DNA from: Eubacteriaceae bacterium | GTDB taxonomy: Bacteria > Bacillota > Clostridia > Oscillospirales > Acutalibacteraceae | Assembly (NCBI GenBank): GCA_021770095.1 | Contig: JAETRQ010000001.1 | Span: 124,001 to 188,000, forward strand | Reading direction: 5' to 3' | DNA: 64,000 bases | Made by a program: the position numbers and the translations under genes | Shown here: positions 33,237 to 39,594 of the stretch, in pieces | Numbering within the stretch: position 1 is the stretch's first letter | Layout: each line of letters begins with the position of its first letter | Notes under the pieces: model-generated | Told to the model about the DNA's origin: nothing | Database searches by the model: none | What the model saw: the letters and a program-made list of their open reading frames with translations, nothing else

Positions 33237-33280
33237 AAAAACAAGGCTTGTTATATAAAGTATAACAAGCCTTGTTTTTA
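33237..33280. terminator. Bidirectional terminator between the Na/Pi gene and atpC
   Basis: A 16-bp perfect stem (AACAAGGCTTGTTATA and its complement, 33239-33254 and 33261-33276) with A-rich and T-rich flanks. It serves the converging Na/Pi and atp transcripts. Confidence 0.9.
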
Positions 33281-33691
33281 TATATTATGTTTATTCTTTA
33301 ATTTAAGTCTTTCCATTGCACGGGCAAGATTTGCTTTTGAATGATAATATTCCAGTCGTGAATGCTCCTGACGCAATTCCTCTTCTGCCCTGATTTTAGC
33401 CTCCTGTGCACGGCGGGCGTCAATCTCCTCAGGGAGTTCGGCAGAGACACAGACAAGAGTGGCTGTATTATCAAGGAATTCTAAAAAACCATTTCCGACA
33501 AAAGCATAAATCTCTTTACCGTTCGCATCCGTTATTTTCATTTCACCTTCGTCAATCGGCAAAACACAATTTTCATGATTGGCAAGAAAACCTTTATATC
33601 CCATATCAACATGCGGAATTACGAGTGACTGTGCATCACCATCAAAAAAAACTTTGTTTGATGCAATGATTTTTAATTGAAAAGTATTCAT
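33278..33691 (-). CDS. atpC: ATP synthase epsilon subunit
   Basis: Central-stalk subunit of F1 that couples rotation and can inhibit ATP hydrolysis. The 137 residues include the N-terminal beta-sandwich (VFFDGDAQSLVIPHVDMGYKGFLANHENCV) and the C-terminal two-helix part (EIDARRAQEAKIRAEEELRQ). It is the last gene of the atp operon, 8 nt after atpD, and ends at a bidirectional terminator. Confidence 0.96.
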   Translation of the reverse strand: MNTFQLKIIASNKVFFDGDAQSLVIPHVDMGYKGFLANHENCVLPIDEGEMKITDANGKEIYAFVGNGFLEFLDNTATLVCVSAELPEEIDARRAQEAKIRAEEELRQEHSRLEYYHSKANLARAMERLKLKNKHNI

Positions 33692-33699
33692 CCGTTCAC

Positions 33700-35978
<2,279 letters not shown>

Positions 35979-35986
<8 letters not shown>

Positions 35987-37997
35987 TATTTACCTTCTTA
36001 AATTCATTTACTGCTTGTAAAATCTGTTCTTTGATTTCGTCATCAAGAACCTTTTCGTTATCAATAGCAGATATAATCTGAGGATAATTCGTATTGATAT
36101 ATTCAAGCATCTGCATCTGAAATACTTTTATCTCTTCAATAGGAATATCAACAAAACATCTGCTTGTTGCCGCAACAAGAGTCACTACCATATCTGCAAG
36201 TGACAATGGATTGCCAAGCGGCTGTTTGAGCAGCTCCATCAAACCTTTACCATAAACAAGTCCTGCCTTTGTTTCTTCATCCAAATCTGAAGAAAACTGG
36301 GTAAACACTTCCATCTCTCGGTATTGAGCCAAATCAATACGGAGCGAACCGGCGGCTTTCTTCATAGCCTTTGTTTGTGCTGCACCGCCAACACGGGATA
36401 CAGACAAACCAACATTAACAGCAGGACGCATACCACTGAAAAACAAATCACTCTCAAGAAAAATCTGACCGTCAGTGATTGAAATTACATTGGTAGGAAT
36501 ATAAGCAGATACATCACCTGCTTGTGTTTCAATAATAGGCAAAGCGGTAATTGAACCTCCGCCCAAATCATCATTGAGTTTGCTTGACCTTTCCAGAAGC
36601 CTTGAATGGAGATAGAAAACATCACCGGGATAAGCCTCACGGCCAGGACTTCTTTCAAGCAGAAGTGACAATGCACGATATGCAACAGCATGCTTGCTCA
36701 AATCGTCATAAACAATAAGACAATCTTTTCCCTGATACATAAAGTACTCTGCAAGAGCAGTTGCCGAATATGGTGAAATATATTGGAGAGATGCAGGATC
36801 TGACGCGGTTGCCGCAACAACTATCGTATAGTCCATTGCACCTGCTTTTTTTAATGTATTTACAAGTTTGGCTATGCTTGATGCTTTCTGTCCGATTGCA
36901 TTATAAACACAGATAACGCCTTTGCCCTTTTGATTGATAATGGTATCCAGAGCAATTGAGGTTTTACCTGTTTGTCTGTCACCTATAATCAGTTCTCTCT
37001 GTCCTCTGCCAATCGGGAACATGGAATCTATGGAAAGAATGCCTGTTGCCATCGGGGTATCGACACTTTTTCTGTCAACTATTGACGGTGCATTATTTTC
37101 AATAGGGCGATAATCAGCCGCACTGATTTCACCATTGCCGTCAATCGGCTCACCGAGAGCATTGACAATTCTGCCTATAAATTCTTCGCCGACAGGGATA
37201 CCTGCTTTTTTATGTGTACGCTTCACTTTTGTGCCCTGGTGGATACCGACATCACTGCCGAATAAAATAACACCTACCTGATGTTTTTTTATATCCTGCA
37301 CCATTCCCTTAACGCCGTTTTCAAACACAACAATCTCACCGTACATTGCATGGTCAAGTCCATGGATTGTTGCAATGCTGTCACCGACTCTGACAACAGT
37401 ACCGATTTCCTCACCATTGGATTTTATCTCAAAATCCTGAATATCCTGTCTGAGTACGGCAATAACAGATTCATAATCAACACTGCTTTCACGTGCAGAT
37501 GAGATAACACGATTTTTGATAGACTCCAGTTTGCCTTTTAAACTGAAATCATATTCTTTATCCCCTACGGTAATAATAAATCCACCGATAAGTTTATCAT
37601 CGTGAACAATTTCAATTTTGGCATCAACCGCATTCTCTTCTTTGCAGATAAATTGTTTTATCCCCTCAAGCTGCTGAGCATCAGGAGGTGTTATACAATG
37701 AAGTGTTGCAGTGGCAGTATTATTCCTTTTATCCAGTTCTGCGATAAAAGATTGAATAATCTCGTCCAAATCAGCAATTCTGCAATCCGATGCCAAACTG
37801 CATATAAACGGCTTCACAGAAGGTGCAAAAAGTTCATCAATAACATTATTCTTTTCATTCAAAGATACATTAGGGTTATCAAGAACAACAGCAAGCTCTT
37901 TACTGCTTCGGATTATTCTTAATGCATCTTCAAGACTTGACACACTGATTTGTGATGAAAGCAGGGTATCAAGATATTTATCCATATTTTGAATCAT
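35979..37997 (-). CDS. Fused ATP synthase delta-alpha subunit
   Basis: One uninterrupted 672-residue frame joins two subunits that are normally separate. Residues 1 to about 165 are the delta/OSCP subunit (LIGGFIITVGDKEYDFSL, then KGKLESIKNRV, its usual C-terminus). From about residue 174 the alpha subunit begins at its usual N-terminal helix (VIAVLRQDIQDFEIKS), with Walker A GDRQTGKTS at 339-347 and the alpha signature later. The normal delta stop and alpha start are absent: no in-frame ATG, GTG or TTG occurs from residue 110 to Met218. The gene overlaps atpF as ATGA and atpG by 8 bp. No separate atpH or atpA exists in the operon. Confidence 0.93.
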
Positions 37998-38479
37998 TTT
38001 TTATCACTGCTTTCATTTAAAAATTGGTCATAAATACTTTTGTCAATTTGTTCCGATGCTTTTTCACCAACAACTTTTTCAGCAGTTTCCATTGCCAGTT
38101 TCGCAATTTCTTCATTAATAGAAAGACGTGCACGCTCACATTCAAGATCAGATGCTTTCTTGGCGTCTGCCTTTATTTTATCAGCATCCTGCTGTGCCTT
38201 ATCGACAATACGGCTGTATTCCTTTTTGGCATTCTGTCTTGCCTGTGACAAAATCTCTTTTTTCTCATTTTCAACATCATCAAGTTGTTCCTGATACTGC
38301 TGTTTGAGTTCGTTTGCTGATTTCTGAACATTGTCAGCATCCTCAAATTGTTTTTCAATCAATTCTCTGCGTTTATCAAGAGTCTTTTTTATAGGTTTAA
38401 AAAGAAATACTTTCATAAGTATAAAAAAGAGAATTAAATCAATTAAAGTCCAGAGAATATTCCAGTCAAATTTTAACAT
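37994..38479 (-). CDS. atpF: ATP synthase b subunit
   Basis: Peripheral-stalk subunit: one N-terminal membrane helix (ILWTLIDLILFFILMKVFLF) followed by a long charged helix rich in Glu, Lys, Gln and Ala that dimerises as a coiled coil. The 161-residue length is normal. Its C-terminus normally contacts delta, here the N-terminal part of the fusion protein. The stop overlaps the next start as ATGA. Gap to atpE is 38 nt. Confidence 0.96.
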   Translation of the reverse strand: MLKFDWNILWTLIDLILFFILMKVFLFKPIKKTLDKRRELIEKQFEDADNVQKSANELKQQYQEQLDDVENEKKEILSQARQNAKKEYSRIVDKAQQDADKIKADAKKASDLECERARLSINEEIAKLAMETAEKVVGEKASEQIDKSIYDQFLNESSDKK

Positions 38480-38517: not shown

Positions 38518-38775
<258 letters not shown>

Positions 38776-38778
38776 TTA

Positions 38779-39594
38779 TCAGGCAGACTTTGCTGCCTTA
38801 TTTTTTTCTTTTCTGCTTCTTTTCTTAATTTTCTTTAACTGCTTGCGTTTTTCCGTTTCTTCTTCATCTTCAACTGCTTCCTGAAGATAAAGTGCAGTTA
38901 AAAATACAAAGATATACGCCTGCAGTAAACCGTCAAATATATCAAAATACAGACTCAGTATCACGGGAACACCAACCGGAATGATTGCTTTGACAAGTTC
39001 CATAATCGTGAATGCTGCAATAATATTACCGAAAAGTCGCATACATAAAGAAAGCGGCTTTGTAAATATCTCAAGAATATTTATCGGTGTTATAATCCAG
39101 ATTGGTTTGGCAAGTGCTTTTATCCTGCCTATAATTCCTTTTTCCTTGATTGATGCATATTCAACCAGAACAATTGAAGTAACCGCCATTGCCGCTGTTA
39201 CCTGCATACTTTTGGTAGGCGGCTTCATACCGAACAAACCGATAATATTTGATGTACCGATAAATAATGCCATACTCATAAGCCATGGAATATATTTTTC
39301 AACCTTCTCGCTGAGTATACCTTTGAAAAAGTTCTCGCCTTTCTCATAAAGCATTTCAAGAATCTGCTGACGCTTTGATATTTCACCTGTTACTTTAAAA
39401 TTCCTGGTAAGAATGATTGCAAGTACAGTGAACACGGCAATAATTATCCACGACACAACAGTAGTTTCATCAAAGCCAATTCTGACACCGCCGACATTGA
39501 AATGAAAAACTTCTTCAATATTAAGTTGTTCCGTCAATTCACTCTGTAAATCAAGTTTCATTGAAATAGGGCCAAATATATCAATCACCCCCAC
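38779..39594 (-). CDS. atpB: ATP synthase a subunit
   Basis: Stator membrane subunit that forms the ion half-channels. The essential Arg is in LCMRLFGNIIAAF, and the last helices are typical. The protein is 271 residues from the GTG at 39592-39594. The start is uncertain: a second GTG lies at 39586-39588 and an ATG at 39559-39561, none with an ideal ribosome site. A 30-residue, strongly charged C-terminal tail (EDEEETEKRKQLKK and more Lys/Arg) follows the last helix, which is unusual for this subunit. It is the first gene of the atp operon; no atpI precedes it. Confidence 0.95.
   Translation of the reverse strand: MGVIDIFGPISMKLDLQSELTEQLNIEEVFHFNVGGVRIGFDETTVVSWIIIAVFTVLAIILTRNFKVTGEISKRQQILEMLYEKGENFFKGILSEKVEKYIPWLMSMALFIGTSNIIGLFGMKPPTKSMQVTAAMAVTSIVLVEYASIKEKGIIGRIKALAKPIWIITPINILEIFTKPLSLCMRLFGNIIAAFTIMELVKAIIPVGVPVILSLYFDIFDGLLQAYIFVFLTALYLQEAVEDEEETEKRKQLKKIKKRSRKEKNKAAKSA

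Follow-up and report, generated by a model that had tools for sequence, protein, structure and literature searches.

A naturally occurring full-length fusion of the ATP synthase delta and alpha subunits in a member of the Clostridia, with apparently repeated loss of the delta N-terminal domain among its fused relatives

The window analysed in this work is a stretch of 64,000 nucleotides from a genome of the family Acutalibacteraceae (Clostridia), and it contains an atp operon in the order a-c-b-(delta-alpha)-gamma-beta-epsilon, which is otherwise complete and standard. Its genes, and the parts of the fused gene, are the following:

38779..39594, minus strand: atpB, subunit a (open reading frame, Pfam; sole match in the genome)
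38518..38745, minus strand: atpE, subunit c (open reading frame, Pfam)
37994..38479, minus strand: atpF, subunit b, whose 3' end overlaps the ATG of the fusion by 4 bases
35979..37997, minus strand: delta-alpha fusion gene, 672 aa (open reading frame, Pfam and NCBIfam matches)
37722..37997, minus strand: N-terminal six-helix domain (NTD) of delta (OSCP), residues 1-92 of the fusion (OSCP match, predicted helices)
37488..37718, minus strand: C-terminal domain (CTD) of delta, residues 94-170 (Pfam, delta profile, model, alignment with PDB 9jc1)
37476..37487, minus strand: junction, residues 171-174 (model; residues 171-173 below pLDDT 50)
37419..37475, minus strand: N-terminal helix of alpha, residues 175-193 (alignment and model)
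35994..37409, minus strand: body of alpha (barrel, nucleotide-binding and C-terminal domains), residues 197-668 (Pfam, NCBIfam)
35102..35986, minus strand: atpG, subunit gamma (open reading frame, Pfam)
33700..35226, minus strand: atpD, subunit beta (open reading frame, Pfam, NCBIfam)
33278..33691, minus strand: atpC, subunit epsilon (open reading frame, Pfam)

About 44 codons of the frame listed for atpD precede its match to the beta model, and this frame overlaps the 3' end of atpG. Neither an Rfam nor a tRNA scan of the window gave a hit.

The fusion gene is a single frame of 672 codons on the minus strand, from an ATG start to a TAA stop; read on the plus strand, positions 35979-37997 contain many stops. 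The delta part matches OSCP (Pfam PF00213) at residues 21-163, covering profile positions 25-171 of 172 with 85.8 bits against a gathering cut-off of 22.3, and so belongs to the delta/OSCP family. It is followed by the alpha domains ATP-synt_ab_N (197-261), ATP-synt_ab (319-534) and ATP-synt_ab_C (541-666), and the NCBIfam atpA model TIGR00962 spans residues 174-668 (758.8 bits, cut-off 484.45) over model positions 3-499 of 503, which identifies this part as an F-type alpha. The models of the F1-like ATPases MMOB1660 and MSC_0619 score it below their cut-offs (446.1 vs 600 and 320.5 vs 520, respectively). A complete delta and a complete alpha in one frame, as described in the initial annotation, are therefore what the reading frame coordinates, Pfam and TIGR00962 agree upon, and the two are joined by about four residues, a junction that is also short in the fusions of most relatives. 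An AlphaFold model from a shallow alignment of 47 sequences (mean pLDDT 73, pTM 0.57, with parts of the nucleotide-binding region below pLDDT 50) places six predicted helices of the NTD within residues 5-91, ends the delta CTD in a helix at 153-170, breaks at 171-174 and begins the alpha barrel at residue 198. The two domains of delta and the N-terminal helix of alpha are thus retained, with a minimal linker. The VIA-align list for the model consists of alpha chains, and bears on the alpha part of the protein, not on the delta part.

A search of the whole genome with the OSCP profile gave one match, the fusion itself; F-type alpha, beta and subunit a each occur once in the genome, with no further relatives of the fusion query beyond alpha and beta at E<=1e-3. 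The absence of a separate atpH or atpA, first proposed for the operon, thus extends by search to the genome. Subunit b is a stand-alone protein of 161 aa, which scores 39.6 against NCBIfam NF009961 (B/delta; cut-off 328), the model of what we take to be the mycobacterial b-delta fusion, and falls outside that family. The mycobacterial protein is like the window protein in that delta is fused to a neighbour from the atp operon, but its partner is b, whereas the partner in the window is alpha, present three times per head. Ordinary bacterial F-type enzymes have the same two delta domains and all alpha domains, encoded by two genes instead of one.

The closest known counterpart is an engineered one. 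Ueno et al. 2025 describe a delta(DeltaN)-alpha FoF1 of Bacillus PS3, solved as PDB 9jc1 (PMC12229609). The central dimple of PS3 FoF1 is occupied by the delta NTD, which touches the alpha N-termini, and these authors hold this domain responsible for limiting the head to one stalk (PMC12229609). Their fusion, which has no NTD, functions as an enzyme and carries as many as three peripheral stalks, with one a-subunit on each (2.2-fold a, 1.8-fold b); its H+/ATP ratio is 5.8 vs 3.0 and its equilibrium force 68 vs 133 mV. According to the same source, every ATP synthase known until then has one a-subunit only (PMC12229609). The article further lists natural cases without the NTD, one from Acidaminococcus fermentans and two UniProt entries, G4Q3K6 and A0A1I2C5T3 (PMC12229609). 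The initial annotation, which was aware of no characterised delta-alpha fusion, is therefore superseded on this point, one having been engineered and solved without its NTD and natural cases being reported alongside. Window residues 97-668 align with chain I of PDB 9jc1, and in both a short junction connects the delta CTD, which is the b-binding domain in known enzymes, to the N-terminus of alpha; the engineered chain lacks the NTD, whereas the window protein keeps it. In terms of the design of Ueno et al., the window has the in-frame fusion of CTD and alpha but not the absence of the NTD. The A. fermentans fusion, which we know from its published description, is natural and likewise has delta followed by alpha, and differs from the window in the missing NTD. 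Natural NTD-less fusions found in this work share the layout of the engineered PS3 chain: one from the window's genus (L019) aligns with chain I over residues 10-579 of 588, and its model (pLDDT 76.3) shows the delta CTD, a helix at 63-80 and then the alpha N-terminal helix at 86-98. We found no account of a full-length delta-alpha fusion, or of repeated NTD losses from such fusions, in the open-access literature; the consulted part of PMC12229609 holds no mention of a full-length fusion, and the words Lachnospira and Butyrivibrio are absent from its main text. The delta-alpha fusion is thus known in its NTD-less form, and the full-length form and the pattern of fusion followed by trimming are apparently undescribed.

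The search for proteins combining OSCP and alpha and their placement on a tree, proposed when the gene was first noted, yielded many of them in several lineages. Among 80 genomes of the window's genus, 75 gave an alpha match, and 58 of the 80 have a full-length fused frame (39, including the window, verified by domains and 19 by frame length); the rest of the 75 comprise seven NTD-less fusions, two with separate genes (all nine verified) and eight partial matches. The fusion recurs in Lachnospiraceae and Ruminococcus. An artefact of sequencing or assembly, by which a stop or a frameshift would have been lost, was discarded, given that the same fused frame occurs in many separately assembled relatives (38 verified congeners besides the window, plus other families), and we regard it as having a negligible chance of being the explanation. 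Using a delta profile built from 72 separate deltas and 44 full fusions, and counting some genes under several loci, we classified a first batch of 205 alpha-bearing frames as 52 full fusions, 74 NTD-less, 77 separate and two alpha only, and a second batch of 73 as 32 full, eight NTD-less, 30 separate, one alpha only and two with an in-frame extension and yet a separate delta. The best 80 of at least 595 stretches, a sample biased towards the query, contained 28 full, 29 NTD-less and 23 separate cases. Of 196 genomes sampled across the class, 120 have an F-type alpha (E<=1e-100), and 30 of these carry a verified fusion, six of them full (including the window) and 24 NTD-less; the remaining 90 have alpha frames of at most 560 codons, some of which were checked. 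A phylum-wide sample gave alpha in 171 of 199 genomes and, among the matches listed, the longer frames that were fetched proved to be NTD-less fusions in G559, G634, G544, G503 and G528, whereas in G644, G608 and G595 the delta is separate. Named strains are among the loci: Pseudobutyrivibrio xylanivorans DSM 14809 (L050) and Agathobacter ruminis JK623 (L052) carry the full fusion, Butyrivibrio hungatei DSM 14810 (L088) and Shuttleworthella satelles DSM 14600 (L081) the NTD-less form.

On an alpha tree of 161 rows made by a quick method, the fused or separate state changes 10 times. Two congeners (loci L269 and L270, genomes G430 and G466) have separate delta and alpha genes with both delta domains kept, and this pair is nested inside the full fusions in a more careful genus tree of 61 rows (96/83; AU test p 0.09), which could represent a natural fission of the fusion. 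If genes can be split in two congeners, the fusion may not be indispensable. Two further observations concern unusual alphas. In G198, from the same family as the window, an alpha (L168:1372-2988) is extended at its N-terminus by about 39 residues, with no delta recognised in its locus; it sits among NTD-less fusions in the tree, and a second F-type alpha of this genome is ordinary. Weaker alpha/beta-like matches, in frames of about 460 and about 595 codons, occur in six congeners (G001, G002, G003, G007, G012 and G016) and resemble subunits of V/A-type ATPases; G016 (90% complete) has no other matches, and the genome of the window shows none of this kind in a search at E<=1e-3.

Fusions without an NTD begin at the delta domain boundary, at position 91-106 of 174 in the profile, with few extra residues before the CTD in most of them and with one outlier on each side (position 58 in L093 and 114 in L183). 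A separate NTD gene elsewhere was considered and rejected: on visual inspection of 11 NTD-less loci, subunit b directly precedes the fusion and no reading frame for an NTD was seen beside it, and genome-wide searches of seven NTD-less congeners gave no second OSCP match above the cut-off. At E up to 1 there are weak extra OSCP matches of 10.5-14.4 bits, two in G438 and one in G158 (a full fusion), which we take as chance. The state of the NTD changes 12 times on the 161-row tree by the quick method, at least nine of them on starred branches, and the seven NTD-less congeners fall in three places among full fusions in the 61-row genus tree. A single clade of the seven is rejected by the AU test (p-AU 4.5e-7), and the phylogeny thus argues for three independent NTD-less lineages within the genus of the window. 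By comparison, all 109 separate deltas, from partly redundant loci, keep at least 51 residues before the CTD, and the profile recognises the NTD in 107 of them, the exceptions being L161 (a frame of 132 residues) and L025 (a divergent delta). Among the genes examined, absence of the NTD is found only in fused ones. This restriction fits a covalent link that would replace the docking role of the NTD; a paired-lineage test of whether fusion goes with NTD loss comprised only six pairs and lacked power (median p 0.5). The alpha N-terminal helix has lower information in NTD-less fusions and, within the genus, mildly higher divergence, both in comparisons of sets that differ in breadth, which is at most a hint that it may have been relaxed after NTD loss. 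Spacing between the starts of b and delta or of b and the fusion showed no clear difference between architectures.

Where the NTD is kept in a fusion, it is under purifying selection, with dN smaller than dS in all 19 pairs with a finite dS (25 pairs were listed, and six had none). At equal alpha divergence, and with pairs that are not independent, the NTD/CTD divergence ratio lies above that of separate deltas in three bins (alpha distance 0.15-0.30) and equals it in the others. Relaxed selection was accordingly dropped, the NTD of full fusions not diverging clearly faster than that of separate deltas, which also argues against a superfluous NTD in the window enzyme. Purifying selection together with a divergence about as in separate deltas makes it most likely that one NTD copy still caps the head.

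As for the energetic setting, the genome encodes an RnfD-family protein between an RnfG-like protein and a neighbour that, from its sequence, we read as RnfC-like. The RnfG-like protein (L212:2433-3518) has two FMN-binding domains in tandem (two stretches of Pfam FMN_bind). From this Rnf-type cluster a small ion gradient is likely to be made by ferredoxin oxidation, and the cluster would suit a need for ATP synthesis at low force. Rumen butyrivibrios have Rnf and often Ech, with an F0F1-ATP synthase in all 62 genomes, as stated in the part of PMC4478896 used here, which makes no mention of a delta-alpha fusion. Nine of the 30 fused genomes in the class sample (G048, G062, G080, G088, G114, G158, G194, G212 and G229) have a second F-type alpha of ordinary length, and B. 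hungatei, too, probably has an ordinary F-type enzyme besides the fused one. Second atp operons were seen at L185 (G212), L187 (G158), L189 (G114), L191 (G062), L197 (G080) and L205 (G088). The c-subunits of these six ordinary operons have Gln/Glu in helix 1 and Glu-Thr in helix 2, presumably a sodium-binding pattern, while those beside full fusions, among those listed, have mostly Ile and Glu-Ala-Thr. The two ATP synthases of such double-operon genomes may use different ions.

The product of the window gene is likely to be one uncleaved chain of about 74 kDa. Release of free alpha or delta, through an internal start or a cut at the junction, would restore three alpha to one delta, and both the low model confidence of residues 171-173 and the separate genes usual in F-type enzymes are compatible with it. 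However, the stretch free of starts, which had been given as running from residue 110 to Met218, is real and even longer, with no in-frame ATG, GTG or TTG in codons 78-217. Among 45 full fusions a start with a Shine-Dalgarno (SD) sequence is found at the junction in seven, against 5-10 at three control positions, and any in-frame ATG, GTG or TTG near the junction in 26, against 43, 30 and 43 at the controls. The SD test is crude, detecting a start with SD in only 45 of 61 separate alphas; in NTD-less fusions such starts are slightly commoner at the junction (12 of 54, against 5-10 of 54 at the controls). There is, then, no conserved internal start at the junction of full fusions, and internal initiation as a general rule was rejected. 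Initiation at a CTG, put forward earlier as a way out, fares no better, with no such codon among codons 160-200 of the window fusion. A cleaved NTD-less fusion would, moreover, leave a CTD without a known hold on F1; this missing anchor is the strongest of our arguments for the intact chain as the working part, and we consider free subunits improbable.

An ordinary enzyme contains delta once and alpha three times. The explanation that we find best, and rather probable, is an uncleaved delta-alpha chain with three delta modules per head, in which the link anchors the stalk and the NTD is dispensable. An intact chain would place one delta module on each alpha of the F1 head. Of the stoichiometric puzzle raised in the initial annotation, the natural fusion is confirmed and the three delta modules per head hold on condition that the chain stays intact. 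One NTD would cap the central dimple as in ordinary enzymes and the other two would have no room there; each CTD would be held on its own alpha by the short covalent junction and could bind a b2 stalk. The covalent link would take over the anchoring of the stalk to F1 from the NTD, which would then be dispensable, and several fused lineages would have lost it afterwards; the window would represent the stage before this trimming, fused and with the NTD still present. The uncleaved product, the anchoring by the link and the single cap per head are what we infer here.

For this uncleaved chain two arrangements of stalks have to be weighed. If the NTD limits the head to one stalk, as Ueno et al. 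propose (PMC12229609), the extra modules may be idle in the window form, and the enzyme would be an intact fusion with a single stalk, two idle delta modules and a fusion that is near-neutral. We give this nearly even chances: the NTD is kept in most congeners, under selection, and the fusion has been both gained and possibly lost, but two idle modules of 170 residues per head would be costly and yet the fusion is held across most of the genus, the fused state recurs outside it, and what has been lost is the NTD and not the whole delta module. The other arrangement would have two or three b2 stalks on the three delta CTDs, with one a per stalk, which would raise H+/ATP and let the enzyme synthesise ATP, or export protons, when the proton motive force is low. 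All three CTDs would be tethered as in the engineered enzyme (PMC12229609), repeated natural NTD loss converges on the engineered layout, and the genome has the Rnf-type cluster, taken as a modest ion pump. Set against these are the single atpB of the genome and an NTD that is retained under selection and, according to Ueno et al. (PMC12229609), restricts the stalks to one; we see several stalks in the window enzyme as possible and lean against them.

More tentatively, and with considerable doubt, the Clostridia may offer a graded series, from separate genes (one stalk) through the full fusion (capped, extra stalks possible) to the NTD-less fusion (up to three stalks and a-subunits), in which fusion would free the NTD for loss and its repeated loss would be the repeated evolution of a higher H+/ATP gear at small proton motive force. 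The window's genus, whose sister species show all three architectures, provides a natural experiment on the limit to stalk number, and with the fusion one can test whether a natural ATP synthase is able to carry several supporting stalks. If natural fusions do carry more than one a-subunit, the H+/ATP assumed for these fermenters would be too low, by up to threefold.
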